Below, one piece after another: positions 5,437 through 33,073 of a stretch of 64,000 nucleotides of DNA (positions are counted from its first letter, which is position 1; every line of letters starts with the position of its first letter). Source of the stretch: Candidatus Eisenbacteria bacterium (GTDB lineage: Bacteria; Eisenbacteria; RBG-16-71-46); NCBI GenBank assembly GCA_020847735.1, contig JADLBL010000001.1, positions 248,001 through 312,000 of the forward strand, read 5' to 3'. The position numbers were made by a program, and so were the translations under genes. The notes beneath the pieces are model-generated. The model did no database searches and was not told the DNA's origin. It saw only the letters and a list, made by a program, of their open reading frames with translations.

Positions 5437-5448
5437 AAAGGAAACGAC

Positions 5449-13353: not shown

Positions 13354-13521
13354 GGGCAGGAAGTCCTCACGGGAAGTCATTTCGGGCACGGGCGCGTCGC
13401 TTGCGCTCATGAGGATGCGGCATGCGTTCCGTGCCGTCCAGCCATGGGCACCGGCGCGCTCGTGCTGTTAACCTGTGGCGTCGCGCCTCCGTCGCTCACG
13501 TTCCCGAACCCGGGGCCACTG

Positions 13522-14721
13522 GTGCTTTCGTCCGTTCCACGCCTTCGCGCCTTGTGCGGCATGCTCCTCGCGGTCCTCGTGGGCGCGAGCCATGCCCACG
13601 GCGCGGTCACCTTCGTCGTGAGGGCGCCCGCCTCGACGCCGCCCGGGGCCGTGCTGTGGATCTCGGGGGACCGCCCCGAACTGGGCGCCTGGAACGGCTC
13701 CGGGCTGCGACTCCGGCCCGATTCGTCCGGTGCCTGGACGGGGTCCTTCTCTCCGCCGACGGGCGCGGCGTTCGAATACAAGGTCACGCGCGGGAGCTGG
13801 GAGACGGTCGAGAAGGACGCTTCGGGAGGAGAACTCGCCAACCGAATCGGCATCGCCGGCGGGGCGGAAGACACGCTCCGGGTCACGGTCGCCGCGTGGC
13901 GGGACCAGACGGAAGCTCCCGTTGCCCGCTCGCACACGATCACCGGCGAAGTCCGCCGTCACGACGCATTCCCGTCGAAGTTCGTCAGGGCCCGCGACGT
14001 GCTGGTCTGGTTGCCCCCGGGCTACGAGACGCAGCCCGACCGCCGCTACCCGGTCGTCTACTTCTGCGATGGGCAGAACGTCTTCGATGGCGCGACCAGC
14101 TTCATTCCCGGGCAGGAGTGGAGGGCGGACGAGGCGGCCAACGCGCTGATCCGCTCACGCCGGCTCGGCCCCTTCCTCATGGTCGCGGTCGCCAACACCC
14201 CGGACCGGATGGCGGAGTACACCTCCGCGGCGGATTCCCGTCACGGCGGCGGTCGATCGTCGGACTATTTCCGCTTCCTGCTCGAGGAGCTGCAGCCGTT
14301 CGTGAACCGGGAGTACCGGACGCTGACGGACCCCGCGCACACCGCCATCGTCGGCTCATCGCTCGGCGGGCTGGCGGCGCTCGACCTCGGCCTCGCGCAC
14401 CCGGACCGCTTCGGCCTGATCGGCTGCATTTCGCCGGCCGTCTGGTGGGCGGACACCGAGATCGTCCGCCGGGTGCGCTCGGGAAGGAAGGAACCGCTCC
14501 GGATCTGGCTGGATATCGGGACCGCCGAAGGCTCGGGCCCGGCCGCCGGGTCCAACCCGGCGCTCGAGCAGGCGCGACTCCTTCGCGACGCGCTCGTCGC
14601 GAAGGGCTGGCGAGAGGGCGGGGACCTGCACTACGAGGAGATCCCGGGCGCACGGCACAACGAGGCCGCCTGGGCCGCGCGCATCGAGCGCGTGCTGGCG
14701 TACCTGCTCGCGACCCCCTGA
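13522..14721 (+). CDS. Secreted esterase with N-terminal starch-binding CBM20
   Basis: A 399-residue exported protein. After a signal peptide of about 27 residues comes a CBM20-type starch-binding domain (about 28-125; motif SGDRPELGAWN). An enterochelin-esterase/Esterase-D type alpha/beta hydrolase follows, with nucleophile S280 in VGSSLGG and a late His in GARHNEA. It may remove acyl groups from polysaccharide bound at the cell surface; the substrate is unknown. The start is uncertain: the GTG at 13522 gives the best signal peptide, while ATGs at 13444 and 13561 are alternatives. It is divergent from the GH13 gene and convergent with the glucan operon. Confidence 0.8.
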   Translation: MLSSVPRLRALCGMLLAVLVGASHAHGAVTFVVRAPASTPPGAVLWISGDRPELGAWNGSGLRLRPDSSGAWTGSFSPPTGAAFEYKVTRGSWETVEKDASGGELANRIGIAGGAEDTLRVTVAAWRDQTEAPVARSHTITGEVRRHDAFPSKFVRARDVLVWLPPGYETQPDRRYPVVYFCDGQNVFDGATSFIPGQEWRADEAANALIRSRRLGPFLMVAVANTPDRMAEYTSAADSRHGGGRSSDYFRFLLEELQPFVNREYRTLTDPAHTAIVGSSLGGLAALDLGLAHPDRFGLIGCISPAVWWADTEIVRRVRSGRKEPLRIWLDIGTAEGSGPAAGSNPALEQARLLRDALVAKGWREGGDLHYEEIPGARHNEAAWAARIERVLAYLLATP

Positions 14722-14795: not shown

Positions 14796-17429
14796 TCAGC
14801 GGGAGAGGCGGAAGACGCGTCCCGAACTGGCAGGGATCGAGACGGTGGCCGTGCCGCTCCAGGCCTCCGGTGCGCCGCCGACGAGCGCGTCCACGGCGCT
14901 CGCGCGGCCCCCCCAGCGCGAACAATCGAGCTTCACGTCGGCGTCCTGCCGGCCGGCATTGATGACGACGACGAACGTCTCCTTGCCGTCGGTTCGCTCG
15001 AACGCGTAGCTCATACCGTCGGTCGCGAGCGTCCGGAACTCGCCGGTGCGAAGCGCCGCGTGCGCGAGCCGCAGGTTCGCCAGCCGCGTGTACCAGTCGT
15101 GCATCGCGGCGCGGCCGGCGTCCTTTTCCCAGTCCCACACGAACGGGCGCCGGCAATCGGGGTCGCGCTGGCCCTCCATGGCGATTTCGTCGCCGTAGTA
15201 GATGGCCGGCGCGCCCACGTAGGTCATCTGGAAGAGCGCGGCGAGCTTCAGACGGCTGGCGTCCCCGTTCGCCTGCGTCAGGTAACGCACCGTGTCGTGG
15301 CTGTCGATGAGATTCATCTGCACGGCCACCGACTGGCTCGGATAGGCGAGGCGGCCGGTGGCGAGCGACGCATCGAACTCCGCGGCCGTGCCCTGGCCCT
15401 GACAGAGAAACTTGAGCACCGGGTCGCGGAAGAAGGCGTAGTTCATGACCGCGTCGTACATGCCGGGACGGACGTAGTCGGAGGCGTTGCCCCACAACTC
15501 GCCGACGATGTAGGCGTCGGGCTTGATCTTCTTGACGCGCTGGTTGAAGAGCTTCCAGAACCAGTACGGCAGCTCGTTGGGCACGTCGAGCCGCACGCCG
15601 TCCACGTCGGCCGTCTTCAGCCAGTACTCCGTGGAGTCCAGCAGGTACTGCACCAGCGCGACGTTGGGCTGGGCGTCCTGGACGTCGCGGATGGGGATCT
15701 CGGCCTTGTCGTCCCGCGACAGGTCGAAGTTCAGGTCGGGCAGATCGCCGAAGTTCCACCAGCAGTAGTAGTAGTCCGACGGCTTCCAGGGATGGTTCAC
15801 CGCCGGCCAGCCGTCCGGAAGCGGCCAGCGCTTGAACTGGAACCAGCTCCAGTAGGGCGACTTCTCGCCCTTCTCGACCGCGTCGCGGAAGGCGAAGTTC
15901 GAGTTCCCGCAGTGATTGTAGACGATGTCGAGAATCACCCGGATGCCCTTCGTCTTCGCCGCCTTCACGAACGCGATGAACTCCTCGTTCGTGCCGAAGT
16001 GGGGGTCGATCTTGCGGTAGTCGGCCGCGTCGTACTTGTGGGTGGACTTCGCCTCGAAGACCGGATTGAAATAGATGATCGTCACACCGAGCGACTTCAG
16101 GTAGTCGAGCTTCTCGCGCACGCCGGCGATGTCGCCGCCGTAGAACGCCATCCAGTCCCGGTGGTCAGGCGTGTAGGGACACTGCGTGAGCGCCTGGTAG
16201 TCGTTCCAGTCGCGGACCAGGTGGTAATACTCCTGGTAGTCGGTGTTCAACTTGCCGTCGGGCGGCAGCGTGGTCTTGCCCTGGTAGTACCACTCCTTGA
16301 AATCCTGGTCGTTCGCCGGATTCCCGTTGCGGAACCGGTCGGGAAAGATCTGGTAGATGACGCCGTTCTTGACCCAGTCGGGCGTCTCGAACGCCGGAAA
16401 CTTCGCCGGATCGAAGGTGAAACGCTTCCCGCCGGTCGCGGAGAAGCCGTCCGGCCCGAGCCACTGCGGTGTTCCACCGTCGCGATAGCGGAATGCGTAC
16501 GGTGTCGCGCCCGCCAGCGTGACCTCGGCGCGGAAGTACTCGTAGACCTTGTCGGTCATGATCGACGGCATCGGCGTGACCGTCTCGCGGCCGGCGGGCC
16601 AGGTCACCAGGTCCACGCCCTCGACGTCGTCGAGGTGCGCCCGCGCCGTGAACTGGATCCTGCCGCCACCCAGCGGATTCAGTTCGCTCGCTCCCTGCGT
16701 GTGCTGGACGCCGTCGGCGAACACCCGCCCGTCGCCCTTGCGGACCTCGATCGCCGGGAAGCGTTCGTCCACGTTGCGGATCGAGTTCTTGCCCCCGAAG
16801 CCGTCGTCCACCTCGCCGTCCTGCCCGGCCTTGTCCTGCGTCCAGCCGTTGCTCCCGACCACGAACTTGTACGGGTAGGAACCGGCCGCCAGCAGGAGCG
16901 TGGCGGAGTACTCTCCGTCGCCGTCGGGGTCCGTCATCGGCGTCTTGCCGACCGTCCAGTCGTTGAACGAGCCGCACAGCCAGAGTTGATCGGGCTTCGA
17001 CGCGGGCCGGAACCTGAACGTCACCTGTCGCAGGCCCGCCTGGACCGGCGCGGCCTTCTTCACCGCCGCGCCGTAGCCGACGACCAGGGGCTTCTCGCCG
17101 ACGACCACCACGCTGTTCTGCCCGCCGAAGCCGTCCGATTCGAAGTCGGCCGCCCCCTCGTCGGTCATCCACTGGTCGCCGTTGACGACGAACTTGTAGG
17201 TCACCCGGCCGGCGGGGATCTCGACGTCCGCGGACCAGATGCCGTCCTTGTCCGGATCGGCGAGCGGGTTGGCCGTGGCGTTCCAGCCGTTGAAGCTGCC
17301 GGCGACGCTGACCGCGGTGACGCCGCCGATGACGGGCTGCCAGCGGAACGTGACCTTGGTCGCGAACGCGGGCGTTGCGAGCAGGATCAGGCCCGCGGAA
17401 AGTATCGCGAGCAGGGAGTTGCGCTTCAT
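14796..17429 (-). CDS. Exported neopullulanase/cyclomaltodextrinase-type GH13 with two glycogen-binding modules
   Basis: An 877-residue exported enzyme, last gene of the glucan operon. Signal peptide residues 1-23. Two AMPK-type CBM48 modules lie at about 25-110 and 133-220, each with GSFNxW, YKFVV and a DGFGGxNS signature. A linking beta domain follows, then the GH13 barrel from about 350: region I DIVYNH, nucleophile D615 in GVRLDVP, E644 in VGELWG and D712 in DSHDT. IYQIFPDRFRNGNP is typical of the cyclomaltodextrinase/neopullulanase subfamily, which hydrolyses maltodextrins, cyclodextrins and pullulan. The export signal differs from the usual cytoplasmic location of that subfamily. The gene follows a triple-module lipoprotein by 22 bases. 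Confidence 0.92.
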   Translation of the reverse strand: MKRNSLLAILSAGLILLATPAFATKVTFRWQPVIGGVTAVSVAGSFNGWNATANPLADPDKDGIWSADVEIPAGRVTYKFVVNGDQWMTDEGAADFESDGFGGQNSVVVVGEKPLVVGYGAAVKKAAPVQAGLRQVTFRFRPASKPDQLWLCGSFNDWTVGKTPMTDPDGDGEYSATLLLAAGSYPYKFVVGSNGWTQDKAGQDGEVDDGFGGKNSIRNVDERFPAIEVRKGDGRVFADGVQHTQGASELNPLGGGRIQFTARAHLDDVEGVDLVTWPAGRETVTPMPSIMTDKVYEYFRAEVTLAGATPYAFRYRDGGTPQWLGPDGFSATGGKRFTFDPAKFPAFETPDWVKNGVIYQIFPDRFRNGNPANDQDFKEWYYQGKTTLPPDGKLNTDYQEYYHLVRDWNDYQALTQCPYTPDHRDWMAFYGGDIAGVREKLDYLKSLGVTIIYFNPVFEAKSTHKYDAADYRKIDPHFGTNEEFIAFVKAAKTKGIRVILDIVYNHCGNSNFAFRDAVEKGEKSPYWSWFQFKRWPLPDGWPAVNHPWKPSDYYYCWWNFGDLPDLNFDLSRDDKAEIPIRDVQDAQPNVALVQYLLDSTEYWLKTADVDGVRLDVPNELPYWFWKLFNQRVKKIKPDAYIVGELWGNASDYVRPGMYDAVMNYAFFRDPVLKFLCQGQGTAAEFDASLATGRLAYPSQSVAVQMNLIDSHDTVRYLTQANGDASRLKLAALFQMTYVGAPAIYYGDEIAMEGQRDPDCRRPFVWDWEKDAGRAAMHDWYTRLANLRLAHAALRTGEFRTLATDGMSYAFERTDGKETFVVVINAGRQDADVKLDCSRWGGRASAVDALVGGAPEAWSGTATVSIPASSGRVFRLSR

Positions 17430-17451
17430 CGGTGCGTCTCCTCGGCCGGAG

Positions 17452-18597
17452 TCACTTCACGACGACGACGGAGTTCTTGCCCCCGAACCCGTCGTCCTGT
17501 GATTCGGAGTTGCCGTCGTCCGATTTCCAGGCGGTGCCGTCCACGAGGAACTTGTAGGCGTAGCGCCCCGGAGCGAGCTTGCGCGTCAACGACCACGAGC
17601 CGTCGGCCCGCTGGGTCATGGGGTCGGCGGTGGTGGCCCACGAGTTGAAGTCGCCGCACAGGGCGACCCCGGACTTCGCGGGACCGGCGTAGGTGAAGAC
17701 GACGCCGGCGGCCGTGGCTTCCGGGGCGCGCGGCTTCGCCGAGGCGGCCAGCGGGCGGACCGCAGGCGCCGAGGTCGCCGTCACCGGCGCCGCCGCGGCG
17801 GCGGGAGCGCCCGCCCCTGCGCCCACCACGACCACGCTGTTCTTGCCGCCGTATCCGTCGTCCACGAACTCGGCCGCGTTGGGATCTTCCTTCCACTGGG
17901 TGCCGTCCACGACGAACTTGTACGCGTAACGGCCCGGCGCCAGCGCCTTCGTGAGGGTGAAGGAGCCGTCGGGCGCCTTCGTCATCGGATCGGCGCTCGT
18001 GCTCCAGGCGTTGAACTCACCCGCGAGGTTCACCGTGTTCGCCGCGCCCGTGAAGCGGAAGACCACGCCCGCCGAACTCACCGCGGGGCCGGCTCCCCGC
18101 GCGGCCGTCGCCGCGGCCGTGGCCGCGGGCGGCGCACTGGCCGCGGCGGTCGCGCCCGTTCCCACGACCACCACGCTGTTCTTGCCTCCGAAGCCGTCGT
18201 CCACGCCCTCGCTCACGCCCGGATCCGGCTTCCAATTGGTGCCGTCCACGACGAACTTGTACGCGTACTTCCCGGCCGCCAGCTTCTTCTCGAGACGCCA
18301 CGAGCCGTCCGGCTGCTTCTTCATCGGATCGGCGGAGGTGCTCCAGGCGTTGAACTCGCCCGCCACGTTGACGGCGCTGCCTTCACCCTTCCAGACGAAC
18401 ACGACGCCGTCCGCGGTCGCATGGGTTCCCGCCGGCTGCGAGGCGGCGGCGGCGGGCGGCGGCGTGGCGGTCGCGGACGCGCCGTTGGCGGCCCATTCCG
18501 CGGGTGGCGCTCCGCCACGCCAGCCTCCGGCGCAACCGGCGATCAGGGTCAGCAGCAGCAGGGGAACGAGCGGGCGGGCGGGGAATTTCATCTTCAT
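17452..18597 (-). CDS. Lipoprotein with three tandem glycogen-binding (CBM48) modules
   Basis: A 381-residue lipoprotein built almost only of carbohydrate-binding modules. The lipobox LIAGC places the anchor at Cys22. Three AMPK-type modules follow at about 63-146, 176-258 and 297-381, each with GEFNAWST or GDFNSWAT, PDGSW or ADGSW, YAYKFVVDGT and a closing DDGFGGKNSVVVV. Linkers are rich in Ala, Pro and Thr. Repeat similarity is very high, so the copies arose by recent internal duplication or are kept alike. There is no enzyme domain, so its job is presumably to hold alpha-glucan at the membrane surface. It overlaps the upstream lipoprotein gene by four bases (ATGA). Confidence 0.9.
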   Translation of the reverse strand: MKMKFPARPLVPLLLLTLIAGCAGGWRGGAPPAEWAANGASATATPPPAAAASQPAGTHATADGVVFVWKGEGSAVNVAGEFNAWSTSADPMKKQPDGSWRLEKKLAAGKYAYKFVVDGTNWKPDPGVSEGVDDGFGGKNSVVVVGTGATAAASAPPAATAAATAARGAGPAVSSAGVVFRFTGAANTVNLAGEFNAWSTSADPMTKAPDGSFTLTKALAPGRYAYKFVVDGTQWKEDPNAAEFVDDGYGGKNSVVVVGAGAGAPAAAAAPVTATSAPAVRPLAASAKPRAPEATAAGVVFTYAGPAKSGVALCGDFNSWATTADPMTQRADGSWSLTRKLAPGRYAYKFLVDGTAWKSDDGNSESQDDGFGGKNSVVVVK

Positions 18598-19412
18598 CTC
18601 CGGGCGCCGGCGGTTGGGGCCGGCGGTATGAGTGCGATCGAGAATCGCTGGCGGCGTGCGTCGAGCCGAAACGCGTACTGCCCGGTTTGCGCGAAACGCA
18701 CGACCAGGTCCGTCGAGGGGCCGCTACCGTGCACCGTCGGCTGGCTCGCCAGCGGCGTCACCAGCGTTTCCGCGGGCGACCCGCCCCAGCCGATCAGGTT
18801 GCCGTCGTACGTGTTCTGGTCGTCGTCCACGAACTTGAGGCGGTACGTACCGGCCGGGATGTCGGTCGGCACGGCGAAGTCGCCGGGATAGGTGTGGATG
18901 CCGACGGTGTCCTGATTGCATTGCGTGGTGCCCATCTGCAGGTCGAGGAACGCGAAGCCCGGCATCGTGCCGACGATGTACACCGCGTGATTGACGGCCG
19001 ATTCGTTCAGGGTGAGCACCGTGCTTCCCGCGTCGAGCACGCCGTCGCGCACCGGAAGCCCGCCGCGCGAGACGGGGAGGAACGCGCTGGAGCGCACCAC
19101 CATGCTGTAGGTGCCCGCCGCGAGTCCGGTGAAGTGGTAATCGCGCGAGTCCGGTGCGAGCGAATCCACCGCGACCGAAACGCCACCGAGGAACAGCTCG
19201 ACGCGCGTTGGCGGAAAGGGCGGAAGAGCGAGGCCCGGGTCGCGATCGGAGTAGAAGTAGACCGATCCGGTCATCCCGCCCGGCCAGGTCTCCGGAGCCG
19301 GTCGGATTCCGGTCGGGACGAGCAGCAGCCCGGCCTTGTTGCGGCCGCAACCCGCCGGCGCGAGAGCCGCCAGCAGGAGCACCGCGGCGAGAAATCGGGG
19401 AAGGGGTCTCAT
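18594..19412 (-). CDS. Lipoprotein of unknown function in the glucan operon
   Basis: A 272-residue protein with a signal peptide and lipobox LAPAGC (Cys at about residue 22). I do not recognise a family. The mature part looks all-beta, with alternating hydrophobic strands, a RVELFLGG segment, a TYSMVVRSS segment and a YRLKFVDDDQNTYDGN stretch faintly like the module ends of its neighbours. The N-terminal half resembles a carboxypeptidase-regulatory or prealbumin-like fold only in pattern. It overlaps both neighbours by four bases (ATGA on each side), so it is a fixed member of the operon and probably works with the glycogen-binding lipoproteins. Confidence 0.75.
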   Translation of the reverse strand: MRPLPRFLAAVLLLAALAPAGCGRNKAGLLLVPTGIRPAPETWPGGMTGSVYFYSDRDPGLALPPFPPTRVELFLGGVSVAVDSLAPDSRDYHFTGLAAGTYSMVVRSSAFLPVSRGGLPVRDGVLDAGSTVLTLNESAVNHAVYIVGTMPGFAFLDLQMGTTQCNQDTVGIHTYPGDFAVPTDIPAGTYRLKFVDDDQNTYDGNLIGWGGSPAETLVTPLASQPTVHGSGPSTDLVVRFAQTGQYAFRLDARRQRFSIALIPPAPTAGARR

Positions 19413-19819
19413 CGGACGTCGATCAACGAGTTGAACCCGCCGTAGCCGTCGTCGGTCCGGTTGGGGTTGTTCGGGTCTTCCTTCCAGTTCACCCGGTCGA
19501 TCACGAACTTGTACTGGTAGCGCCCGGGGGCGAGACGCTGCGTTCTCGTCCAGATGCCGTCGCCATCCTCGTCCTTCATTTCGCCGACGAGGAAGCTGCC
19601 GGTCTGGGCCTGCCCCCGAAGCCAGTCGTTCTCCGGCCAGTTGCCCGCCAGCTGGACGATCCGCGCCGAGGGCGCCATGAAGCGGAACACCACGCCCTCC
19701 GGCGTCTGCGTGGGCGGCGGCAGACGGCGCTTGACGAAGTTGAGGCTGCTGCAGCCCGGCACCCCGAGGCCCGCGGAGAGGGCGAGCAGCAGCGTCAGGA
19801 GCGGAAGCGGACGACGCAT
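19409..19819 (-). CDS. Small lipoprotein with a single glycogen-binding module
   Basis: A 136-residue lipoprotein. Signal peptide with lipobox VPGC (Cys at about 23), a short linker rich in Pro and Thr, then one AMPK-type module from about 40 to the end. It shows VVFRFMAPSA, GNWPENDW in place of GxFNxW, YQYKFVIDR and a closing DDGYGGFNS. The ATG at 19819 is the first sensible start, 11 bases after the barrel gene. It overlaps the next gene by four bases. It is probably a surface or periplasmic glucan-binding subunit. Confidence 0.85.
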   Translation of the reverse strand: MRRPLPLLTLLLALSAGLGVPGCSSLNFVKRRLPPPTQTPEGVVFRFMAPSARIVQLAGNWPENDWLRGQAQTGSFLVGEMKDEDGDGIWTRTQRLAPGRYQYKFVIDRVNWKEDPNNPNRTDDGYGGFNSLIDVR

Positions 19820-19830
19820 TTCGGGCCCTT

Positions 19831-22197
19831 CTAGAAGTGAACCACGGCTTCGAGGTGCAGCCGGCGTTCGTTCTGCAGCGCCTTCTCGGCCGCCGAGATC
19901 TGCGGCGCGAGGCTCAGCCAGTTGGATTCGGCGATCCAGCCGTTGACGTTGCGGTCGTACAGATACTGCTCCCGGCCGATGTTGGCGAACTCGTTGGTCA
20001 CCGGGTCGAGCACGCGCGGCGAGACCCCCCAGCCCATGGCGACGTGGATGCCCTCGGCGATCCGGTAGTCGACCTGCGCGAAGTTGCTCACATAGGCCCG
20101 ATCCAGCTTCAGCGCCGGCGCGTCGTACTTGACCCAACGCGTGTCGTTCGAGAACCGCAGCGACCGCGTCAGGTCGAAGCCGAGCTGGAAGACGTTTTCC
20201 GCGTAACGCGGCCGCAGCCCGAGCTTCACGCCGGTGAAGTCTCCACGCCAGTGGAAATCCACGTTGCGTGCCCGGCGGATCGGCACCTCGAGCGAGGGCG
20301 TCAGCCGGTAGGCATGGTCCTCGCACAGCAGCGTCAGCCGGTCCACGCCGACGACCTGGCCGTCCTGCTGCAGCCACATGTTCCCGGTCGGGAACCACAT
20401 CTGGTACTCCCACGCGGTGCGTGCATCGTAGCGGAAGTCCGTCAGTTCGAGCCCGACCGAGGTGCGGACCTCGCGTCCGAGGTAGTAACGCCAGTTGCGA
20501 TCCCAGCGCAGCCGCCATTCGGTCATGCGATTCTCGAGATCGGACTGGCCCACGTAGGTCCCACGCTGGAAGTCCACGTTCTCGAAGCGGGGATGATCCG
20601 TGTTCGCGAGGCCCGCCGGCGCGACCGGCGGCATCGCCCACGCGGGGTAGGTGTGCGTCTGCCGCTCGAACTCGGCGGTCAGCACGACGTCACCCCCGGC
20701 CAGCGACCACGTGCCGCCGGCGATCAGCCGCGCGCTCTCGTCGAGGTTGAAGTGCTGGCCCATCGGCGTCGTCAGGTTCACCACGCGAATCGCGGAGGGC
20801 CCGGTGCCGGTGATGCCGGTCGCGACGAAGTCCACGCGCGTGCCGCGGTCCATCATGTCGAGCCTGCGGGCGCCCTGCAGGTACTCGCCCCACACGGACG
20901 AACCGTTCCTCAGCGGCAGGCGGGCCTCCCCACCGCCGGCGAAGGACTGCTGTTCGGTCTGACCGAACCACAGGATGCCGGTGGAATCCGACGTCACCCG
21001 GGTCAGCGAGAGGCGCCCGAGGTGGAAGCCGCGGTCCGTTCGACCCAGCACGCCCAGCCGCAGGCCGTTCGCCAGCGTCCGACGCAGCGACGTGGCGAAG
21101 ACGTCCGAGGCGCCGTCGCCGAACCCGAAGCCCGCGCCGCCGTCGCCGATGTCGGTGGCCGTCAGCTTCGAGAACTGGTCCTGCACGAGCGCGAACGTGA
21201 CCGAGTCGCGTCGCACGGTGCGCAGTTGCTTCCAGGCCGCGCTGATCGGATCCGCCTCGAAGACGAACTGCCGATTCGTGCCGCGATTGATCGAGAAGTC
21301 CATGGACTGGATGGGGAAGCGGCCCCCGAAGAGCGTGGTGTCGGACTTGTTGGTGCCGGGGAACTCGGTGCCGCCGGTGGCGCTGTTGTCCGCGTACAGG
21401 AGCTGTCCGTCGAAGCCGAACTTCGTGGCGCCGAGCAGGAACCCGTCGCGCTGGTAGCCGAAGGGATGCGCGTAGATGCCGACGTCGCCGACCAGCCGCG
21501 CCGGGTCGTCCCACGTCGGGATCGTCTCGCTGCTGAAGGCGAACAGCTTCAGTCCCGGCTGCGCGAAGTCCATCGAGCCGCGCTTGAAGTTCAGGCGGGA
21601 CCGGTAGTCCTGCACGTCCTCCTTCTGCGGATCGATGTTCGTGAGCACCCGCGCCTTCAGCAGGTCCGAGATCCGGATCCCGAATCCGAGGTCCACGTCG
21701 AAGGTCGGGCGCACGATCTCGTAACGCGAGTAGACGGGGTCGAACGCGACGTAGGTCAGACTGTGGACCCGCCCGTCGATCGTGATCTTCGGGCTGTAGG
21801 CGGTGTTCGAGGTGGCCGCCTGTTTCACCAGCGCACCGTCCTCGCCGACGCGGACGACGCTGTTTCCGAACTCGCCCACGGTGACCGGGTTCTCGGGGTC
21901 GGCGAACCACTGGCCGTCCACCACGAACTTGTACGGGTGCTCGCCCGCCTTGAGCGGGATCACCACGGACCACACCCCGCCATCACCCTTCGTGAGGGGG
22001 TTGGCCGATGGGGACCACGCGTTGAACTCGCCCGCCCACGCGACGGTGTTCGCGTTCGGCGCGGAATAGGTGAAGCGGATGCCGCCCGCCACGGCCTGCG
22101 GCGCGGCGGCGGCCGGCGCCGGCCCGAGCGCGAAGGCCGCCAGGGCGGTCGCCAGCGCGAGGTGCCGCGCGGAGCGGAGAGGGATCTGGAATGCCAT
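19831..22197 (-). CDS. Outer-membrane beta-barrel-like protein with N-terminal glycogen-binding module
   Basis: A 788-residue exported protein (signal peptide about 1-32). Residues about 38-120 form an AMPK-type CBM48 module (WAGEFNAWS, HPYKFVVDGQW, EFGNSVVRV). From about 130 to the end the sequence looks like a large outer-membrane barrel: many strands with alternating aromatic and polar residues, long Gly/Asn/Asp-rich loops, and a final ERRLHLEAVVHF with a C-terminal Phe, as expected for barrel insertion. It is not a recognisable SusC/TonB receptor; no plug domain or TonB box is visible. Its ATG at 22197 shares its A with the stop of the upstream barrel gene. Likely role: capture and passage of glucan at the outer membrane. 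Confidence 0.82.
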   Translation of the reverse strand: MAFQIPLRSARHLALATALAAFALGPAPAAAAPQAVAGGIRFTYSAPNANTVAWAGEFNAWSPSANPLTKGDGGVWSVVIPLKAGEHPYKFVVDGQWFADPENPVTVGEFGNSVVRVGEDGALVKQAATSNTAYSPKITIDGRVHSLTYVAFDPVYSRYEIVRPTFDVDLGFGIRISDLLKARVLTNIDPQKEDVQDYRSRLNFKRGSMDFAQPGLKLFAFSSETIPTWDDPARLVGDVGIYAHPFGYQRDGFLLGATKFGFDGQLLYADNSATGGTEFPGTNKSDTTLFGGRFPIQSMDFSINRGTNRQFVFEADPISAAWKQLRTVRRDSVTFALVQDQFSKLTATDIGDGGAGFGFGDGASDVFATSLRRTLANGLRLGVLGRTDRGFHLGRLSLTRVTSDSTGILWFGQTEQQSFAGGGEARLPLRNGSSVWGEYLQGARRLDMMDRGTRVDFVATGITGTGPSAIRVVNLTTPMGQHFNLDESARLIAGGTWSLAGGDVVLTAEFERQTHTYPAWAMPPVAPAGLANTDHPRFENVDFQRGTYVGQSDLENRMTEWRLRWDRNWRYYLGREVRTSVGLELTDFRYDARTAWEYQMWFPTGNMWLQQDGQVVGVDRLTLLCEDHAYRLTPSLEVPIRRARNVDFHWRGDFTGVKLGLRPRYAENVFQLGFDLTRSLRFSNDTRWVKYDAPALKLDRAYVSNFAQVDYRIAEGIHVAMGWGVSPRVLDPVTNEFANIGREQYLYDRNVNGWIAESNWLSLAPQISAAEKALQNERRLHLEAVVHF

Positions 22198-23756
22198 CAG
22201 AAGTTCCCCTTCAGGATGAGCTTGACGATGTCCCGCTGGTCGCCGCCACCGTTGAGGTTGCCCTCGTCCACCGGCATGGAGCCGCCGCCGATGTAGTCGG
22301 GTCCGTACTGCAGGAACATCTCCATGTTCCCGGTCGGACGGTACTGAAGCTGGGTGAAGATGCCCTTGCGCAGGATGCTGGGGTCGTTTCCGAACGCGAA
22401 GCGGTTGTACACCTTGGTCCTGGCCGAAAGGTTGATGGAGTTCTCGACGACGAACAGCTCCTTGCGGTCGGGAGTCCCGATGTCGCGGACCTTCGACTGC
22501 ACGCGCAGCCAGGCGAGGCGGCTCTCGACCTGCAGTTCGTTGAACCAGTCGAGATGCGTCTCGCGCGTCGCGCCCCGCGCGGTCGGACGGTAGATGTCCC
22601 TGCGCTTGTAGGCGGTCTTGCCGGTGAACCCGTTGATGAACTCGATGTAGAGCTCGTTGTAGAGCTCCCGGGTCCGCGTCCGGCCGTAGGCCCTCGGTCC
22701 GTACCAGAGCAGGTTGTTCGTGTACGTCATCGCCCGCTCGGGAAACAGGTAGTAGGTGTTCAGGAAGAAGCCCGTTTCGTCGGAGCCGGGTCCGCCGAGG
22801 GCGTTGTTGTACTTCGGCCCCCGGCTCCACCAGCCCGGGGTGGTGTTGACGTAACCCGTGCGCGCGGTGCCGAGCTTGAAGGACCGGATCTCGGCCTGAA
22901 CGACCGACGCGTCGTCGAGGCGGAAGCCGAGCGGATGCTTGAACGCGGTCACGACCGGTGCGCGCACCGAATCCGGGCGCGGGATCCGGTCGAAGCTCTG
23001 GCCGTACTCGACCGACACGTCGGCGCCGCGAATCCGCCATCTGAGGTCCACGGCGGCCACCGAACTCCACGGCGCGGGGCCGGACGTGCTGTCCAGTCCG
23101 GTCCAGCCCTCGAAGCGATTCCAGGTGACGCCGGTCCGCAGCGCATCGTCGGCCAGGAAGCTGCGCCGCAGGCGCAGGACCCAGGCATCGGACGTGCGCC
23201 GAATGCGCTGGGCGGCGATCGAATCGCGGGGCTGGTGCGGCACGTCCGGGAAGTTGGCCGGGTTGAACTCGCCGCTGCGGTCCGAGGCGATGAGGGTGGC
23301 GTAGGTCTTGTTCCAGCCCCACGTGTCCACGCGCACACCCTGGGCGTCTCCGCGGCCGTAAACCCACGGCACGAGATGCCAGTCAACGTAGAAGCGGTCC
23401 TGGCGGGAGAACACGTAGGCGTCCACGCCCCGCCGGCCGAACTCCCTGCGGAAGCGCAGGTGTCCCTCGCGCCACTGGAATTCGGGCGCAGGGTTGTTGT
23501 TGTCCGTCGGGTTGTACGCCGCCTCGAACTTGAGGAACGACTCGATGCCGGGCGCCGGCTGCGAGAACAGCCGGAACTGGATGTTGTCGAAGACGTCGAA
23601 GGAGTTGGAATCGAAGTCCCACAGGAAGGGACGGTCCCACTTGCGGGTCTCCAGCATCAGCTGATAGTCGCCCTCGAGCTTGGTCGCGGCCGGCGCAGCG
23701 GGGGAGAGGGACGCGAGCAGCAGGAGCGTCGCGAGGGCGCGGGCGCGGAACGTCAT
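22197..23756 (-). CDS. Outer-membrane beta-barrel-like protein, porin-like
   Basis: A 519-residue exported protein with a signal peptide of about 23 residues. The rest shows barrel-type alternation with aromatic girdles and Arg/Asp/Asn-rich turns (for example EGHLRFRREFG, YVFSRQDRFYVDW) and a C-terminal Phe (IVKLILKGNF). I see no catalytic motif and no plug domain, so a porin or barrel partner of the next gene is the best reading. It overlaps the PorV-like gene upstream by four bases and the CBM48-barrel gene downstream by one base, so the three are likely translated in concert. Confidence 0.75.
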   Translation of the reverse strand: MTFRARALATLLLLASLSPAAPAATKLEGDYQLMLETRKWDRPFLWDFDSNSFDVFDNIQFRLFSQPAPGIESFLKFEAAYNPTDNNNPAPEFQWREGHLRFRREFGRRGVDAYVFSRQDRFYVDWHLVPWVYGRGDAQGVRVDTWGWNKTYATLIASDRSGEFNPANFPDVPHQPRDSIAAQRIRRTSDAWVLRLRRSFLADDALRTGVTWNRFEGWTGLDSTSGPAPWSSVAAVDLRWRIRGADVSVEYGQSFDRIPRPDSVRAPVVTAFKHPLGFRLDDASVVQAEIRSFKLGTARTGYVNTTPGWWSRGPKYNNALGGPGSDETGFFLNTYYLFPERAMTYTNNLLWYGPRAYGRTRTRELYNELYIEFINGFTGKTAYKRRDIYRPTARGATRETHLDWFNELQVESRLAWLRVQSKVRDIGTPDRKELFVVENSINLSARTKVYNRFAFGNDPSILRKGIFTQLQYRPTGNMEMFLQYGPDYIGGGSMPVDEGNLNGGGDQRDIVKLILKGNF

Positions 23757-24676
23757 TGCGCCCCTCCGCCCTGACCGCGGAAGCGGAGGGTGACGCGGTA
23801 CGAGGCGCCCAGCTCGTGGTGCGTCCCGGCGGCCGCGTCGATGTACACGCCGCGATGAAAGACGCCGAATCCGCCACTGAACTGCAGGTCGTTCGGCGAC
23901 GCCGTGGACTCGTACGTGCTGGAAATGTTGGACAATCCGGAGCGGATCGCGAACACGTCGAAGAACAGGATCTCGAGTCCGGCACTGAGCGTCGCGGCCC
24001 CGCTCGCGGTCTGCGCCCAGCCGACGCTGATCGTGGACTCGCGGTTCCAGCGGAAGGCCGCGGCCAGTTCCTGCCGCGTCGCGAGCCGGTCGCCTCCGCT
24101 GCCCGACTGGAACTCGTAGCGGGGCTGGAGGAGGTCCCGGCCCACCCAGGACAGGTCCACGCTCCAGGGCGAACGCCAGCGCAGCCCGGCGTCGAACGAA
24201 CCCTTCGAGACCACGCCGTAGTCCTGCGCGATCCCCCCCGGATCCGTGAACGGCTGGAACGCCGCGGTGCCGAAGACGAACGTCGCGCCCGCGTCCAGCC
24301 GCGAGTCCGCCGCGCCGCGCAACAACGTGCGCCCCGCGGCGGCGCAGAACTGGTCCTCGGAGTAGATGTCGGTCACCGAGACGCGATGCCAGCCCAGGGC
24401 CCAGCCCGTGCCCCAGCGCCGGGTCCCGAGCGCGAGCGCGCTTTCGTTGAGGTTGTCCACGCCGTAGGGCTTCGCGACGTCCATCAGCGCTTCGGGACCG
24501 GTCAGCGAGGTGAGCGCCGCCGGGTTCCAGCGATACGCCGACACATCGTCCACCAGGCCCATCGCGGACGGTCCGAGGGCGATCACCCGGGCGCCGACGC
24601 CGGTCAGCTCGAAGTAGGCCTGCGCCGGAGCCGACCACATCAGCGCGGCAAGGCAAAGAAGCGCGACGCGCCTCAC
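23753..24676 (-). CDS. PorV/PorQ-type outer-membrane protein
   Basis: A 307-residue exported protein. After the signal peptide (about 1-20) it has the start typical of the PorV/PorQ (UPF0164) barrels: GVGARVIALGPSAMGLVDDVSAYRWNPAAL. Barrel-like strands follow, ending in YRVTLRFRG. In Bacteroidetes, PorV shuttles type IX cargo to the surface; other members are simple outer-membrane proteins of unknown role. Its presence beside a gene whose product has a FlgD-like C-terminal domain is suggestive. The start codon is a GTG that overlaps the previous stop (GTGA). Confidence 0.78.
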   Translation of the reverse strand: MRRVALLCLAALMWSAPAQAYFELTGVGARVIALGPSAMGLVDDVSAYRWNPAALTSLTGPEALMDVAKPYGVDNLNESALALGTRRWGTGWALGWHRVSVTDIYSEDQFCAAAGRTLLRGAADSRLDAGATFVFGTAAFQPFTDPGGIAQDYGVVSKGSFDAGLRWRSPWSVDLSWVGRDLLQPRYEFQSGSGGDRLATRQELAAAFRWNRESTISVGWAQTASGAATLSAGLEILFFDVFAIRSGLSNISSTYESTASPNDLQFSGGFGVFHRGVYIDAAAGTHHELGASYRVTLRFRGQGGGAQ

Positions 24677-25959
24677 CGCGCCACCACGAACGCGCGGGTC
24701 GCCCGATCGAGGTTCGGCTCGATCGTCACGCGCAGGATGTAGATCCCCGGCTCCACGAAACGCCCCGCGTCGTCCCGTCCGTCCCAGCGTGCCTTGCCGG
24801 TGGCGTTCAGCTCCTCGTCGGCGCGAATGGCCTGGACGTTCTCGCTGGCGAACAGCTGACGCACCCGGCGGCCGCCGGCATCGTAGACGCTCGCCGAGAA
24901 CACCGCCCTGCGGGCGACGTCAATGGGCTCGTCGGGATTCAGCGGCGGCGCAAGTCCGACATGAAAGCGAACGCCTTCGCCGAGGTCCGGTTTGAAGGCG
25001 CCACGATCGAGCGCCAGGCTGCCGATCGAGAAGCGCACGGCCGTGATGGGAGGGGCGTACCGGAAGCTGATCCGTTCGGAGGGCGACACGTCCCAGTCCG
25101 GAATGCCGTCCGGTCCGCCGCGGCCGAGCCCCGTGTCGTCGTTCCGGTCGAGATCAATGGTCGCGTAGTTGTCGAGGATGACGTTCGCGTTGCCGTCGTC
25201 CACGTGCCCGCGCAGGTTGTCGGGGGCGGAGTCCGGACCGCCGCTGCCGTCCCAGCCACCGGTCACGAACGCGGCGATCTTGATCGAATGCACGCCGACC
25301 GGCATGCGGTGCAGCGTATCGCTCGTTCCGCCGACCGTGAGGAACGTGTCCCGCGTGCCGCCGCCACCGAGCCCCGCGAACACGTTGCGCCACGGAATCG
25401 CGAACTCCATCGCGCGCCCGTCGTTTCCCTGGTCGAATGTCGCGGAAGCCCGGAACTCGGGGCCGACCAGATGATCGTCCACCTGGTTGCCCGACACCTG
25501 CGTCAGCAGCCGCGGGTCCGTGTTCGTGTCCCACGTCGCCCCGAAGACGTCCGGCATGAACTCGTCTCCGGGGAAGCGGCCGAAGGTGTCGAAGTTCACG
25601 TTCCGTCGCCACGAGTTGAGGGAGGTCATGTCCCCGAGTCCCCGACTGGGCATGCTGTCGAAGAACAGGATCATGTTGTTGCCCCAGATCTTTCCGTCCA
25701 CGGCGATGTAGAGGTATTGCGCGTCCCATGTGACGTGGATCTGGTAGATCTCGTTGTTCTGCCACTTCGAGTCGTCCCGGGCCTCCTGCGGCACCCCGCC
25801 GGCCGTGAGGCCGAAGACGTCCTCGTCCGCCGGAATGAAGTCCGACGAGTAGCCGTCCACGCGCATGCGGGCGCCGAGGTCGCGGGCGGTGCGCGCGGAC
25901 GCCGGGATCGCGGGAAGCAAGCCGAACACAGCGAGCGCAAGGGCAGTGAGGAGGCGCAC
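24673..25959 (-). CDS. Exported glucan-operon leader protein with CBM9/DOMON-like domain and FlgD-like C terminus
   Basis: A 428-residue exported protein, first gene of the operon. Signal peptide about 1-22. Residues about 30-300 resemble the CBM9/DOMON-like beta sandwich seen in secreted amylolytic proteins (VTWDAQYLYIAVDGK, NNMILFFDS, AMEFAIPW). Residues about 340-428 form a FlgD-like Ig domain (ARWDGRDDAGRFVEPGIY) that ends FVVAR. No catalytic residues are seen. The frame is open 171 codons further upstream; I chose the GTG at 25959 because it begins the signal peptide and lies 48 bases from a good promoter. Possibly a secreted or surface-attached glucan-binding protein. Confidence 0.8.
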   Translation of the reverse strand: MRLLTALALAVFGLLPAIPASARTARDLGARMRVDGYSSDFIPADEDVFGLTAGGVPQEARDDSKWQNNEIYQIHVTWDAQYLYIAVDGKIWGNNMILFFDSMPSRGLGDMTSLNSWRRNVNFDTFGRFPGDEFMPDVFGATWDTNTDPRLLTQVSGNQVDDHLVGPEFRASATFDQGNDGRAMEFAIPWRNVFAGLGGGGTRDTFLTVGGTSDTLHRMPVGVHSIKIAAFVTGGWDGSGGPDSAPDNLRGHVDDGNANVILDNYATIDLDRNDDTGLGRGGPDGIPDWDVSPSERISFRYAPPITAVRFSIGSLALDRGAFKPDLGEGVRFHVGLAPPLNPDEPIDVARRAVFSASVYDAGGRRVRQLFASENVQAIRADEELNATGKARWDGRDDAGRFVEPGIYILRVTIEPNLDRATRAFVVAR

Positions 25960-26042: not shown

Positions 26043-26114
26043 GGCGCCAGCGCCCGCGGACGATTCGGCGGATGAAACAGGCACCGCCTGACCCCGGACC
26101 GTCTCGATGCTTCA

Positions 26115-26143
26115 TTGCGCACGTCCGAACGCGCCCGTACAAT
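26115..26143 (+). promoter_or_regulatory. Promoter of the divergent secreted binding protein
   Basis: TTGCGC (26115-26120), a 17-base spacer and TACAAT (26138-26143). The predicted leader is about 117 bases and contains a small hairpin. Confidence 0.55.
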
Positions 26144-26266
26144 TCCGCCGACTTCGAGGGATTGCGCGCGGGACGGCCGGATCGGCCGCCCATCCGCGGG
26201 TGCTTCGGGCCGAGCCTGCAGCGTGCGTCTTCCCCGTACTTCGACCCGGCCTGGAGAGACCGCCCC

Positions 26267-28735
26267 ATGCGAAAGCTTGCGACTCCGCTTCTCGCGCTGC
26301 TCCTGACGCTTGTGACCAGCCCGGTGCTCGCGGCGATCCCGCAGACGATCGTCGTGGACGGCGTCAACGACTTCGACCCGTCCAACCTGCTCGGGGACGA
26401 CACGAACGACACCCAGCCCGGTTGCGCACCCGTCGCCCTGCCGATGGATCTCGGGAAGATCTTCGTCACCAACGACGCGAACTTCCTCTACATCGGCATC
26501 GAGTTCTCGCGCAGTTGCTACTGCGACATGAACCTCGGCATCGCCCTCGACGTGGGCACGGCCGGCGGCGGCACCACCGATCCGTTCGGCCGCAAGATCG
26601 GCTGGACGAACGTGCCGTTCAAGCCCGACTTCGTCATTTACGACGTCACCCCGACGAGCTGCAACAGCTTCAACTACGAGGTCCTTTACAAGGACACGCT
26701 CGCGACCTGGCAGAACCGTTCGACCTCGATCAATCCGGCCTGGGGCTCCGGAGCCAACGGGTTGGGCATCGTGGACAGCGTCACGTTCAAGGAGCTGAAG
26801 ATCCCGCTTTCGGTCCTCGGCGTCGGGAGCGGGACGAACATGAACCTCGAGTTCTGGGTCACGCAGGAGGGCTCCACCAAGGGACCGCTCGACGCCTTCT
26901 GCAGCGACGACGTGCAGATGTCGCGCGGCAGCCAGACCACCTACGACACGACCGCGGTCGTCCAGATGACGTGCATGACGCCCTACACGGTCCAGAACGC
27001 CGTGGATAACGCGCCGCCCACCGTGCAGTCGGCGCAGGCCGTCAACTTCACCGTCCTGGCCAACCGCCAGTTCAGCCTGCTCACGAACAAGATCGACGTG
27101 CAGTTCAACGAGCCGGTCGAACTCGCGAGCGCGCAGACGCCGGGCAACTACGCGATCGGCGGGCCGCTGTCCCGAACGGTGGTGAGCGCGGTGCGCGACG
27201 GCGCGTCCTCGAGCCTCGTGCACCTGACGCTGAACTCGGCGATCAACGCGAACGCGACCGCCTACACGGTCACCGTCACGGGGGTGGACGACGCCGCCAG
27301 CAACACGATCGTCGCGAACGGCACCACCAACGTCGCCGGCTTCTTCCTCCAGAACGTCACCTTCAACGCCGACCTCGCCCTGCCGCTGTGCGCGGGAACC
27401 TTCGCCGCCTCCGACACGTTCGCCGTCGAGGGCAGCGTCGCGCCGCTGAGCTTCGCGCTCTGCGACAACGGCCTGATGTACGACGCCAACCTGGACTCGG
27501 TCTACACCGTCACGGTGCCGTTCTGCCTGGCGCGCGACCCCGGCACCAGCAAGGGCTCGGCTTCGCTCGAGTGGAAGCTGACGGCGAAGTGCAACACGTA
27601 CGAGAGCTTCCCGGGCAATCGCGTCTACGACCTGAGCAGCGACAACGGCGCGGGCGTCACGCTCAACGTCGCCTGGAGCAACGAGGACCCGGCGAGTTAC
27701 ACGGCCCATCCGGTGGACGTCGTCTTCCGCGTGGACGCCTCGCTCTTCAATCCGACGGGCAGCGACGTCATCACGCTCGTCGGCGGTGCGCTGCCGCTGA
27801 CGTTCAATCAACCGGGCGTGCCGATGCTCGACGGCGGCGTCGCTCCGGATGCGACCGCCGGAGACAAGATCTACACGGCGCGTGTTTCGTTCCCGGCCTG
27901 CACGCCCAAGAACTTCGGCTGGAAGGTGGACTTCAACGGCGTCTACGAGTGCGCGGGGCAGGGCGATCGCGGGGTCTACCTCGACGACGCGCTGTACAGC
28001 GCCTCCACGCCGCTGATCCTGCCGGCGCGCGGCATCGACCGCTGCGACGTCACCGACAAGCCGGTCACCGTGCTCTTCCGCGTGAACATGGATCCGTTCG
28101 ACCCGGTGCCCGCGGACCCCGAGACGCTGGCGGTCATGGGCGATCGCGCGCCGCTGTCGTTCGACCACCGCGAGGCGGCGTCGGTGCTGCGCAACGACGG
28201 CGTCTTCCCCGACGCCGCGGCGGGGGACGCGTTCTTCGGCCGGGCGATCACCTTCCCGGATTCCACCCCGTTCCGTGTCGAGTACAAGTACTGGCTCGAC
28301 GGCACGTTCGAGTGCGAGGCCATGGGCAATCGAGTTCTGACGCTGGACGACGTCAACTACTCGACCGGCAACCCGCAGGTCAACCTCGGCACGAAGTGGA
28401 ACTACTGCACCGACGCCACGGACGTTCCCGTCACGCCCGTCGGCCGTGCCGGCGAGTTGTTCGCCTCGCTCCGTCCGGTGATGCCGAACCCGGTGGTGCG
28501 CGGCGCCCGCTTCTCGTTCGAGCTCTTCCGGGCGGGCCGGGTGGCCCTGCGGATCTACGACGTCTCGGGCCGCCGGGTCGCCAGTGTCGTGGACCGGGAC
28601 CTCGCCCCGGGGCAGCACACGATCGCCTGGGACGGCCGGGGCGACGACGGTGTCCGCCTTCGCAGCGGCGTGTACCTGTACGAGTTGTCGCTCGACGGAC
28701 AGCGCGCCGCACGTCGGATGGTGCTCGCGCGCTGA
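26267..28735 (+). CDS. Large exported multi-module beta protein, probable glucan-binding, with FlgD-like C terminus
   Basis: An 822-residue exported protein (signal peptide about 1-23). The N-terminal part (about 25-245) is DOMON/CBM9-like (NDANFLYIGIEFSRS). A Big_5-type Ig domain follows (about 250-365). Then come three repeated beta modules (about 365-480, 485-595 and 600-715), the last two starting VVFRVD or VLFRVN and all with paired cysteines and charged, Asp-rich loops; they recall starch-binding modules but I cannot name the family. Residues 735-822 form a FlgD-like domain ending RRMVLAR. The ATG at 26267 has GGAGAG eight bases upstream. It is divergent from the glucan operon and probably co-regulated with it. 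Confidence 0.78.
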   Translation: MRKLATPLLALLLTLVTSPVLAAIPQTIVVDGVNDFDPSNLLGDDTNDTQPGCAPVALPMDLGKIFVTNDANFLYIGIEFSRSCYCDMNLGIALDVGTAGGGTTDPFGRKIGWTNVPFKPDFVIYDVTPTSCNSFNYEVLYKDTLATWQNRSTSINPAWGSGANGLGIVDSVTFKELKIPLSVLGVGSGTNMNLEFWVTQEGSTKGPLDAFCSDDVQMSRGSQTTYDTTAVVQMTCMTPYTVQNAVDNAPPTVQSAQAVNFTVLANRQFSLLTNKIDVQFNEPVELASAQTPGNYAIGGPLSRTVVSAVRDGASSSLVHLTLNSAINANATAYTVTVTGVDDAASNTIVANGTTNVAGFFLQNVTFNADLALPLCAGTFAASDTFAVEGSVAPLSFALCDNGLMYDANLDSVYTVTVPFCLARDPGTSKGSASLEWKLTAKCNTYESFPGNRVYDLSSDNGAGVTLNVAWSNEDPASYTAHPVDVVFRVDASLFNPTGSDVITLVGGALPLTFNQPGVPMLDGGVAPDATAGDKIYTARVSFPACTPKNFGWKVDFNGVYECAGQGDRGVYLDDALYSASTPLILPARGIDRCDVTDKPVTVLFRVNMDPFDPVPADPETLAVMGDRAPLSFDHREAASVLRNDGVFPDAAAGDAFFGRAITFPDSTPFRVEYKYWLDGTFECEAMGNRVLTLDDVNYSTGNPQVNLGTKWNYCTDATDVPVTPVGRAGELFASLRPVMPNPVVRGARFSFELFRAGRVALRIYDVSGRRVASVVDRDLAPGQHTIAWDGRGDDGVRLRSGVYLYELSLDGQRAARRMVLAR

Positions 28736-31520: not shown

Positions 31521-31527
31521 GACCGGG

Positions 31528-32748: not shown

Positions 32749-33073
32749 GACCATCCTCCGGCCGCCGCCCGTCGCGAGCGAGGCCCGTGCGCGCGCGCCC
32801 CAGCCCTTCCGGCGCGCCGAATCGGTCGAACCCGGTGGTCGTCTCGTCGGAGGAGCCGGGCCCCGCCGACGGTTCGAGTGAGAAGCGCGCGGCGAAAGTC
32901 GCACGAAGCCGAGGCGGGGCGCAAGGATGTCCGGGCCCGGACGGTTCGGTCGCCCTGCTTGCCGCGCTCGTCGTCCGACGACCGTTCGCGACGATGCGGA
33001 GGGTGCGCCGCGGGCCGCCCTTCGCTAGGGTGCTCGCGATTCGAAGCCGTCACTCCAACCGGGGATGCCCACC
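32749..33073. other. Intergenic region between malE and the M13 peptidase
   Basis: A 325-base divergent region, very GC-rich, with no gene that I can support. The only TA step is in GCTAGGGT (TAGGGT at 33026-33031), a -10-like element for the plus-strand peptidase. I see no recognisable promoter or operator for the importer genes. Confidence 0.5.
33026..33031 (+). promoter_or_regulatory. -10-like element for the M13 peptidase
   Basis: TAGGGT in the context GCTAGGGT, giving a leader of about 36 bases. No -35 box is apparent. Confidence 0.35.

Follow-up and report, generated by a model that had tools for sequence, protein, structure and literature searches.

The enterobacterial maltose system pairs the ABC importer MalEFGK with the outer-membrane channel LamB, and draws no energy from TonB. 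The locus described here would share with it a maltodextrin ABC importer and an outer-membrane channel that works without TonB energy, but its two predicted barrels, C and D, are larger (modelled at about 24-26 strands versus 18) and unrelated to LamB. D also bears its own carbohydrate-binding module (CBM), and extra lipoproteins carry polymer-binding modules. LamB itself (PF02264, an 18-strand porin) has no match in the genome, while the E. coli control was positive. The Ruminococcus bromii amylosome is a Gram-positive, cohesin/dockerin-based assembly. It has in common with the locus that starch-active proteins are assembled at the cell surface (PMC5814915), but parts homologous to it were not seen in the operon. 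In the SusCDEFG system and the SusCD utilisomes of Bacteroidota, too, one operon encodes an outer-membrane barrel together with glucan-binding lipoproteins and an amylase (PMC7618045). Here, in contrast, neither barrel is a TonB receptor or has a plug, SusD is absent from the genome, the binding units are AMPK-type CBM48 modules rather than SusD, SusE or SusF, and an ABC transporter is linked.

The glycogen-binding domain of AMPK beta belongs to the same fold family as these modules and has the same contact residues, W100, K126 and W133. Here, the modules sit not on a kinase or a glycogen enzyme but on outer-membrane barrels and lipoproteins. We found no description of this gene set in the open-access literature searched; the Effluviviacota genome paper mentions starch-degrading enzymes, and SusC, CBM48 and the outer membrane are absent from its text (PMC11323493). 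The operon is probably a TonB-independent system for alpha-glucan (starch, glycogen or maltodextrin) capture at the outer membrane and for maltodextrin import, analogous but not homologous to Sus.

Gene layout and CBM48 modules

The operon lies on the minus strand at 14796-25959 of the window (the whole 64-kb stretch of DNA that was analysed), where gene calls give eight genes, A to H:

A, 24673-25959, minus strand: secreted leader protein, 428 aa, GTG start
B, 23753-24676, minus strand: outer-membrane protein, 307 aa, probable remote member of the PorV/PorQ family
C, 22197-23756, minus strand: predicted outer-membrane beta-barrel, 519 aa
D, 19831-22197, minus strand: CBM48 at the N-terminus (residues 34-117) followed by a predicted large outer-membrane barrel, 788 aa
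E, 19409-19819, minus strand: small predicted lipoprotein with one CBM48, 136 aa
F, 18594-19412, minus strand: predicted lipoprotein, 272 aa
G, 17452-18597, minus strand: predicted lipoprotein with three CBM48, 381 aa
H, 14796-17429, minus strand: secreted GH13 enzyme with two CBM48 at the N-terminus, 877 aa

The neighbouring genes are:

X, 10852-13410, minus strand: secreted GH13 (branching-enzyme/TreZ-like) with CBM48 and a T9SS sorting domain
Y, 13444-14721, plus strand: secreted esterase with CBM20
Z, 26072-28735, plus strand: divergent secreted protein with a T9SS sorting domain (TIGR04183, 23.7 bits, cut-off 23)
29014-29721, plus strand: small secreted protein with an X25 (pullulanase-type) module (PF22058, 1.2e-6, above cut-off)
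29800-30642, minus strand: MalG-like permease (best NCBIfam MalG, 3.3e-52, below cut-off)
30639-31520, minus strand: MalF-like permease (best NCBIfam MalF, 5.1e-50, below cut-off)
31528-32904, minus strand: MalE-like maltose/maltodextrin-binding protein (best NCBIfam MalE, 1.4e-41, below cut-off; SBP_bac_8, 1.7e-38)

Five of the seven junctions within the operon overlap, as the initial annotation had said of most of them, by four bases at A/B, B/C, E/F and F/G and by one base at C/D; gaps of 11 and 22 bases separate D from E and G from H. Promoter and terminator scans gave no signal above shuffles, so co-transcription is argued from gene overlap only. Searches for RNA families and tRNAs returned none in the 64-kb window.

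The initial annotation had counted seven AMPK-type CBM48 modules in four proteins, and the Pfam AMPK1_CBM/CBM48 model finds the same seven: one in barrel D (1.2e-12), one in E (3.9e-6), three in G (1.6e-41) and two in H (1.1e-15), each protein above the curated cut-off of PF16561. A further match in F is sub-threshold (0.0068). A search of the whole 3.66 Mb genome with PF16561 gives exactly these seven matches, and the clustering of all of them in one operon is far beyond chance. The residues through which AMPK beta makes contact are retained across module copies (W100 in 221/223, K126 in 209/219 and W133 in 208/218), and the W-K-W set is present in all seven modules of the window. The nearest solved structures in the PDB are the AMPK beta CBMs, which holds for the CBM48 of D as well. 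Some relatives of D carry two to four CBM48, and in one other (L152) two CBM20 starch-binding domains replace CBM48.

Secreted pullulanases also bear CBM48, so its occurrence outside the cytoplasm is not in itself new. The view that CBM48 is normally an accessory of intracellular enzymes needs correcting, since the module is not restricted to them; the novelty lies in finding it on outer-membrane barrels and stand-alone lipoproteins. E, F and G have N-termini of lipoprotein type, in agreement with the small CBM48 lipoprotein, the further lipoprotein and the three-CBM48 lipoprotein first proposed. The lipobox of E reads ...VPGC, followed by SSLNFVKR, and that of G reads TLIAGC in the sequence; a simple pattern search recovers a lipobox in 52 of 71 E-type ORFs. 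F has weak similarity to CarboxypepD_reg and AMPK1_CBM/X25, and a relative of 1,498 aa contains an X25 module above the Pfam cut-off. The GH13 catalytic domain of H (Pfam, 9.4e-65) is cyclomaltodextrinase/maltodextrin-glucosidase-like and contains the Asp-Glu-Asp motifs GVRLDVPNE, GELWG and DSHD.

The predicted barrels and the PorV-like protein

Both genes initially read as barrels, C and the CBM48-bearing D, are predicted barrels. An AlphaFold model of C (pLDDT 78, pTM 0.70) has about 24 strands and no plug, and the protein has no Pfam match, no NCBIfam family and no PDB relative by sequence. Foldseek aligns it with generic barrels and ushers, the best match being an usher (TM 0.53). The barrel of D is predicted to have about 26 strands, again with no plug; its family is absent from Pfam and NCBIfam, no PDB barrel is related by sequence, and Foldseek finds a loose likeness to known barrels (TM about 0.3). 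Confidence in the barrel models is moderate (pTM 0.70), and their likeness to known barrels is loose. A C-terminal aromatic residue is found in 64 of 68 relatives of C, and 61 of 63 relatives of D end in Phe. As modelled, a plug-less 24-strand pore would be leaky unless gated.

The possibility that C and D are standard TonB receptors was ruled out, as Pfam detects no plug or TonB domain in either and the Foldseek likeness of D to TonB receptors is generic (TM about 0.3). The genome has 12 matches to the TonB-dependent receptor barrel PF00593, none on this contig, and no match to SusD/RagB (PF07980), for which the Bacteroides control was positive; the early observation that neither SusC nor SusD is visible is therefore upheld.

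The reading of B as PorV-like is probable, with B as a remote member: all 19 members of its family match PorV_fam (best 5.5e-26), with the B of the window below the curated cut-offs, and the family profile matches the solved PorV 6h3i (1.7e-4). A combines a conserved N-terminal domain of unknown family, the 300 residues of which are recognised by no Pfam, NCBIfam or PDB profile, with a weak C-terminal FlgD_ig/T9SS-type domain. The suggestion that A is CBM9/DOMON-like is not confirmed, as no such match occurs in 15 A members and none in the PDB by profile. At least 31 loci have A at this place in the gene order. In other lineages it is enlarged to about 1,400-2,100 aa, and the enlarged proteins that were scanned contain a Glucodextran_C module; A was rejected as a Glucodextran_C homologue, with no detectable similarity between the two, and the enlarged proteins hold Glucodextran_C as a separate module.

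Type IX components resemble the locus in B and in the T9SS-like C-terminal domains of A, X and Z, whereas here B has a set place among the genes of a glucan operon and other T9SS machinery is not seen in the cluster. The probable PorV-family membership of B, these C-terminal domains, the T9SS translocon SprA encoded in the genome and the usher secretion pores among the top Foldseek matches of C would fit a surface-display or secretion module, in which B and the barrels form a T9SS-derived export or attachment complex that places amylases and A on the cell surface, while maltodextrins cross at other sites by ordinary diffusion. We consider this unlikely, given that D itself carries glucan-binding modules (CBM20 instead in L152), that profile searches found no sorting domain in H, and that in two loci (L157 and L158) C-D-E adjoins the Mal genes directly, in the order MalFGE before C-D-E, with neither B nor A in view.

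Conserved core and linked transporter

The conserved core runs A-PorV-C-D-E and keeps this order in dozens of MAGs of uncultured bacteria, drawn from this phylum (Eisenbacteria) and no fewer than three further phyla. A-B-C-D-E is found in 31/53 loci and B-C-D-E in 38/53, many others being cut by contig ends; the gene set is present in 17/47 genomes of this phylum and 41/80 of another. Of the eight-gene order sought in related genomes, the core A-E recurs; the border at eight genes is a feature of this lineage alone.

In the window, the MalE/F/G-like genes (29800-32904), all of which match below curated equivalog cut-offs, are parted from A by two plus-strand genes, and the MalF-like permease is the best MalF match of the genome. 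Z is a conserved neighbour of the operon, the X25 gene stays beside MalG in relatives, and Y is also a neighbour in L060, L061 and L073. Mal genes occur in 29/53 loci; in L052, L054, L067, L075, L076, L078 and L124 they follow soon after E on the same strand, whether or not an enzyme gene intervenes, while the core stands without visible Mal genes in L127, L128 and L131-L135. A GH13- or GH57-type enzyme, exchangeable in the same slot, is found in 29 loci. The real conserved unit is the core A-E together with MalEFG and an amylase.

That a single operon encodes an amylase and so many binding modules could also point to a complex for starch adhesion and digestion only, its barrels anchoring the binding proteins and nothing being transported through them. 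Two large conserved barrels tightly linked to a putative inner-membrane maltose transporter, in a genome without LamB to carry the products, make this quite improbable. Still harder to credit is that the operon exports or maintains the cell's own alpha-glucan at the surface (capsule-like glycogen) rather than importing it; the branching-enzyme-like secreted GH13 X would suit such a role, but the linked transporters are predicted binding-protein-dependent importers, the linked enzymes are of the GH57 and GH13 families, and a scan of genes close to the operon turned up neither a synthase nor an exporter.

A proposed route for alpha-glucans

Evidence beyond that of the initial annotation supports its proposal of an alpha-glucan capture system that is Sus-like but arose independently: the MalE/F/G linkage, the alternation of GH13 and GH57, the swap of CBM20 for CBM48 and the conserved glucan-contact residues, as well as a genome that lacks SusD and LamB and two barrels that are not TonB receptors. 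The assignment of alpha-glucan as the substrate class is well supported, while the direction of import, channel activity, topology, complex formation and the role of B are inferred.

In the proposed route, the CBM48 modules of E, G and probably F would be held at the outer membrane, presumably exposed at the surface, and grip alpha-glucan chains, which a GH13 or GH57 enzyme (here H) would cut. C and/or D, as large barrels without a plug, would then let maltodextrins across. Since CBM48 precedes the barrel in D, this module should lie at the periplasmic mouth or in the lumen, where binding of the incoming chain would confer selectivity, and MalE/F/G would complete import. For A, its T9SS-type C-terminal domain and the presence of the PorV-like B point to export and surface retention by the type IX pathway.

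More tentatively, and with somewhat less than even expectation, these loci may represent a class of their own among outer-membrane polysaccharide importers, independent of TonB, widespread across at least four phyla and the counterpart there of SusCD, with two large paired barrels C and D, a built-in periplasmic or lumenal starch-binding gate on D, a PorV-family partner and CBM lipoproteins, all coupled to an ABC pump. Little is known of how glucan polymers pass the outer membrane in Gram-negatives beyond Bacteroidota and Proteobacteria, and the gene set would explain how these lineages use starch or glycogen with neither SusCD nor LamB. The module by which AMP-kinase grips glycogen would here be reused as an outer-membrane receptor module, and the C and D families would provide an annotation marker for an uptake locus that is missed when PULs are found by SusCD pairs.

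Operon layout and CBM48 modules

The operon occupies the minus strand from 25959 to 14796, with eight genes in the order A-B-C-D-E-F-G-H:

A, 428 aa, minus strand, leader protein
B, 307 aa, minus strand, PorV-like protein
C, 519 aa, minus strand, predicted barrel
D, 788 aa, minus strand, predicted barrel with CBM48
E, 136 aa, minus strand, putative lipoprotein with CBM48
F, 272 aa, minus strand, putative lipoprotein
G, 381 aa, minus strand, putative lipoprotein with CBM48
H, 877 aa, minus strand, GH13 enzyme with CBM48

The seven AMPK-type CBM48 modules placed in four of these proteins by the initial annotation are confirmed by Pfam (one in D, one in E, three in G and two in H, beside its GH13 catalytic domain), and the exactly seven matches to PF16561 across the whole 3.66 Mb assembly all lie inside the operon. 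Most junctions had been described as overlapping by 1 or 4 bases, which is true of five of seven (4 bases at four, 1 base at one), with gaps of 11 and 22 bases at the remaining two.

The closest solved relatives of the modules are the AMPK beta CBMs. Residues matching W100, K126 and W133, the glycogen contacts of AMPK beta, are conserved in 221/223, 209/219 and 208/218 module copies, respectively, a set that includes close relatives and whose copies are not independent. The second secreted GH13 (X; 10852-13410, minus strand) keeps the first two contact residues and is missing the Trp at the third place.

Judged from their N-termini, E and G are lipoproteins. In F, a Cys follows a hydrophobic signal, and there is a weak X25/CBM similarity that reaches significance in one longer relative. 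H carries a signal peptide together with the Asp-Glu-Asp motifs of GH13. E-type lipoproteins (e.g., 19409-19819) share a recurrent C-S-x-L-x-F-[IV]-K-[KR] motif directly after the lipid Cys, replaced in one clade by C-S-Y-x-[RK]-[IV]-L-R-N, which is perhaps a sorting signal or a barrel-docking peptide.

Upstream of the operon, beyond two plus-strand secreted genes, and on its 3′ side (Pfam), the window contains:

29800-32904, minus strand (that of the operon), MalE-, MalF- and MalG-like genes
13444-14721, plus strand, CBM20 secreted esterase
10852-13410, minus strand, X
2852-7044, plus strand, purine degradation cluster

The best NCBIfam matches of the Mal-like genes are the maltose proteins, with scores that fall short of the strict cut-offs, and the MalF-like gene is the best MalF match of the genome. 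The esterase recurs at several related loci; could its substrate be acylated glucans? In the purine cluster, a urate oxidase carries a weak cytochrome-c-like stretch at its C-terminus, and allantoicase is joined to OHCU decarboxylase.

The predicted barrels C and D

Pfam and NCBIfam contain no barrel family that matches C or D. A PDB search with the C profile finds no sequence relative at E <= 1, and the PDB relatives of D are limited to its CBM48 part. AlphaFold models from 22-row alignments predict C to be an all-beta, plug-less barrel of about 24 strands (pLDDT 78, pTM 0.70), and D to consist of a signal peptide, the CBM48 (34-117), some 26 strands and, at the C-terminal end, a short helix (pLDDT 79, pTM 0.70); the strand numbers are those we read off the DSSP strings. 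By Foldseek the models resemble known outer-membrane barrels only generically, among them pilus ushers, TonB receptors and porins. Of 68 C relatives, 64 end in Phe, Tyr or Trp, and of 63 D relatives, 61 end in Phe; such an aromatic terminus is the usual mark of BAM-assembled proteins.

A TonB-receptor identity was considered and rejected, as Pfam detects neither plug nor TonB domain in C or D and none of the 12 PF00593 matches in the genome is on this contig. SusD and LamB are absent across the whole genome; the initial annotation likewise saw no SusC or SusD in the operon.

Conservation and a possible T9SS connection

We examined 53 related loci, many interrupted by contig ends, with approximate gene labels derived from profile hits on ORFs. 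The A-B-C-D-E order recurs throughout, contiguous on one strand in 31/53 loci (B-C-D-E in 38/53); Mal genes and a GH13/GH57-type enzyme are each found in 29/53. Of the eight-gene order it is this core that recurs, and the enzyme slot is filled by GH13 or GH57. C is present in 17/47 genomes of this phylum, 41/80 of a second and 2/3 of a third, and in further families beyond these lists, which brings the total to at least four phyla as the tool classifies them. Several lineages have the ABC transporter inside the operon itself:

L052, L054, L075: E-enzyme-MalE-MalF-MalG
L076, L078, L149: E-MalF-MalG-MalE-enzyme
L157, L158: MalF-MalG-MalE-C-D-E

D relatives carry one to four CBM48, and in one D-type barrel (L152:6065-8581) two CBM20 starch-binding domains replace the N-terminal CBM48. 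Enlarged A proteins of other lineages carry a Glucodextran_C module. Together with the in-operon transporter and the GH13/GH57 slot, these modules point to alpha-glucans. At the A position of L078 (3649-9021), L115 (2096-8095) and L117 (11602-16896), the proteins reach about 1,765-2,000 aa and combine Glucodextran_C with Ig-like (invasin/Big_1) domains; that of L078 has a T9SS/FlgD_ig C-terminus. A diverged second B-C-D-E core type (L131, L132, L133, L134 and L135, in G128, G132, G179, G114 and G126) has one or two small CBM48 proteins, with neither Mal genes nor GH13 visible. In G114 it occurs alongside the alpha-glucan type, and it has possibly been retargeted to another substrate.

All 19 B relatives match the PorV/PorQ family and the B profile matches the solved PorV structure, but B of this window itself scores below the curated cut-off; by sequence, B is probably a remote member of that family, in line with the PorV-like assignment. 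The N-terminal domain of A is well conserved and recognised by none of the libraries searched, its C-terminus has weak FlgD_ig/T9SS-like similarity, and the T9SS translocon SprA is present in the genome. B and A point to a possible T9SS-linked surface component. The strongest rival to import takes B, C and D as parts of a surface-display complex that exports or anchors proteins; this accounts for a PorV-family B and the sorting domains, but leaves unexplained the binding modules on a barrel and the loci where C-D-E adjoins MalFGE with neither A nor B beside them.

A proposed route for glucan import

In the import model, glucan would be held at the outer membrane by E, G and F and cut by H or its equivalents, with products passing inward via C and/or D and import completed by MalEFG. 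Since the CBM48 of D lies N-terminal to a barrel that should have its ends in the periplasm, it may act inside the lumen or at the barrel's inner mouth. The direction of transport, the activity of the barrels as pores, the topology and the assembly into a complex are all inferred. The likeness to Sus is in this mode of working, whereas both defining Sus features tested, a SusC-type barrel and SusD, are missing; a putative ABC importer is shared with the enterobacterial maltose system, but LamB of the latter is not found here. No published description of this gene set was found in the open-access literature searched. We class the locus with those for glycan utilisation at the outer membrane, with two unrecognised barrel families as its building blocks; it may possibly represent a categorically new class of importer.
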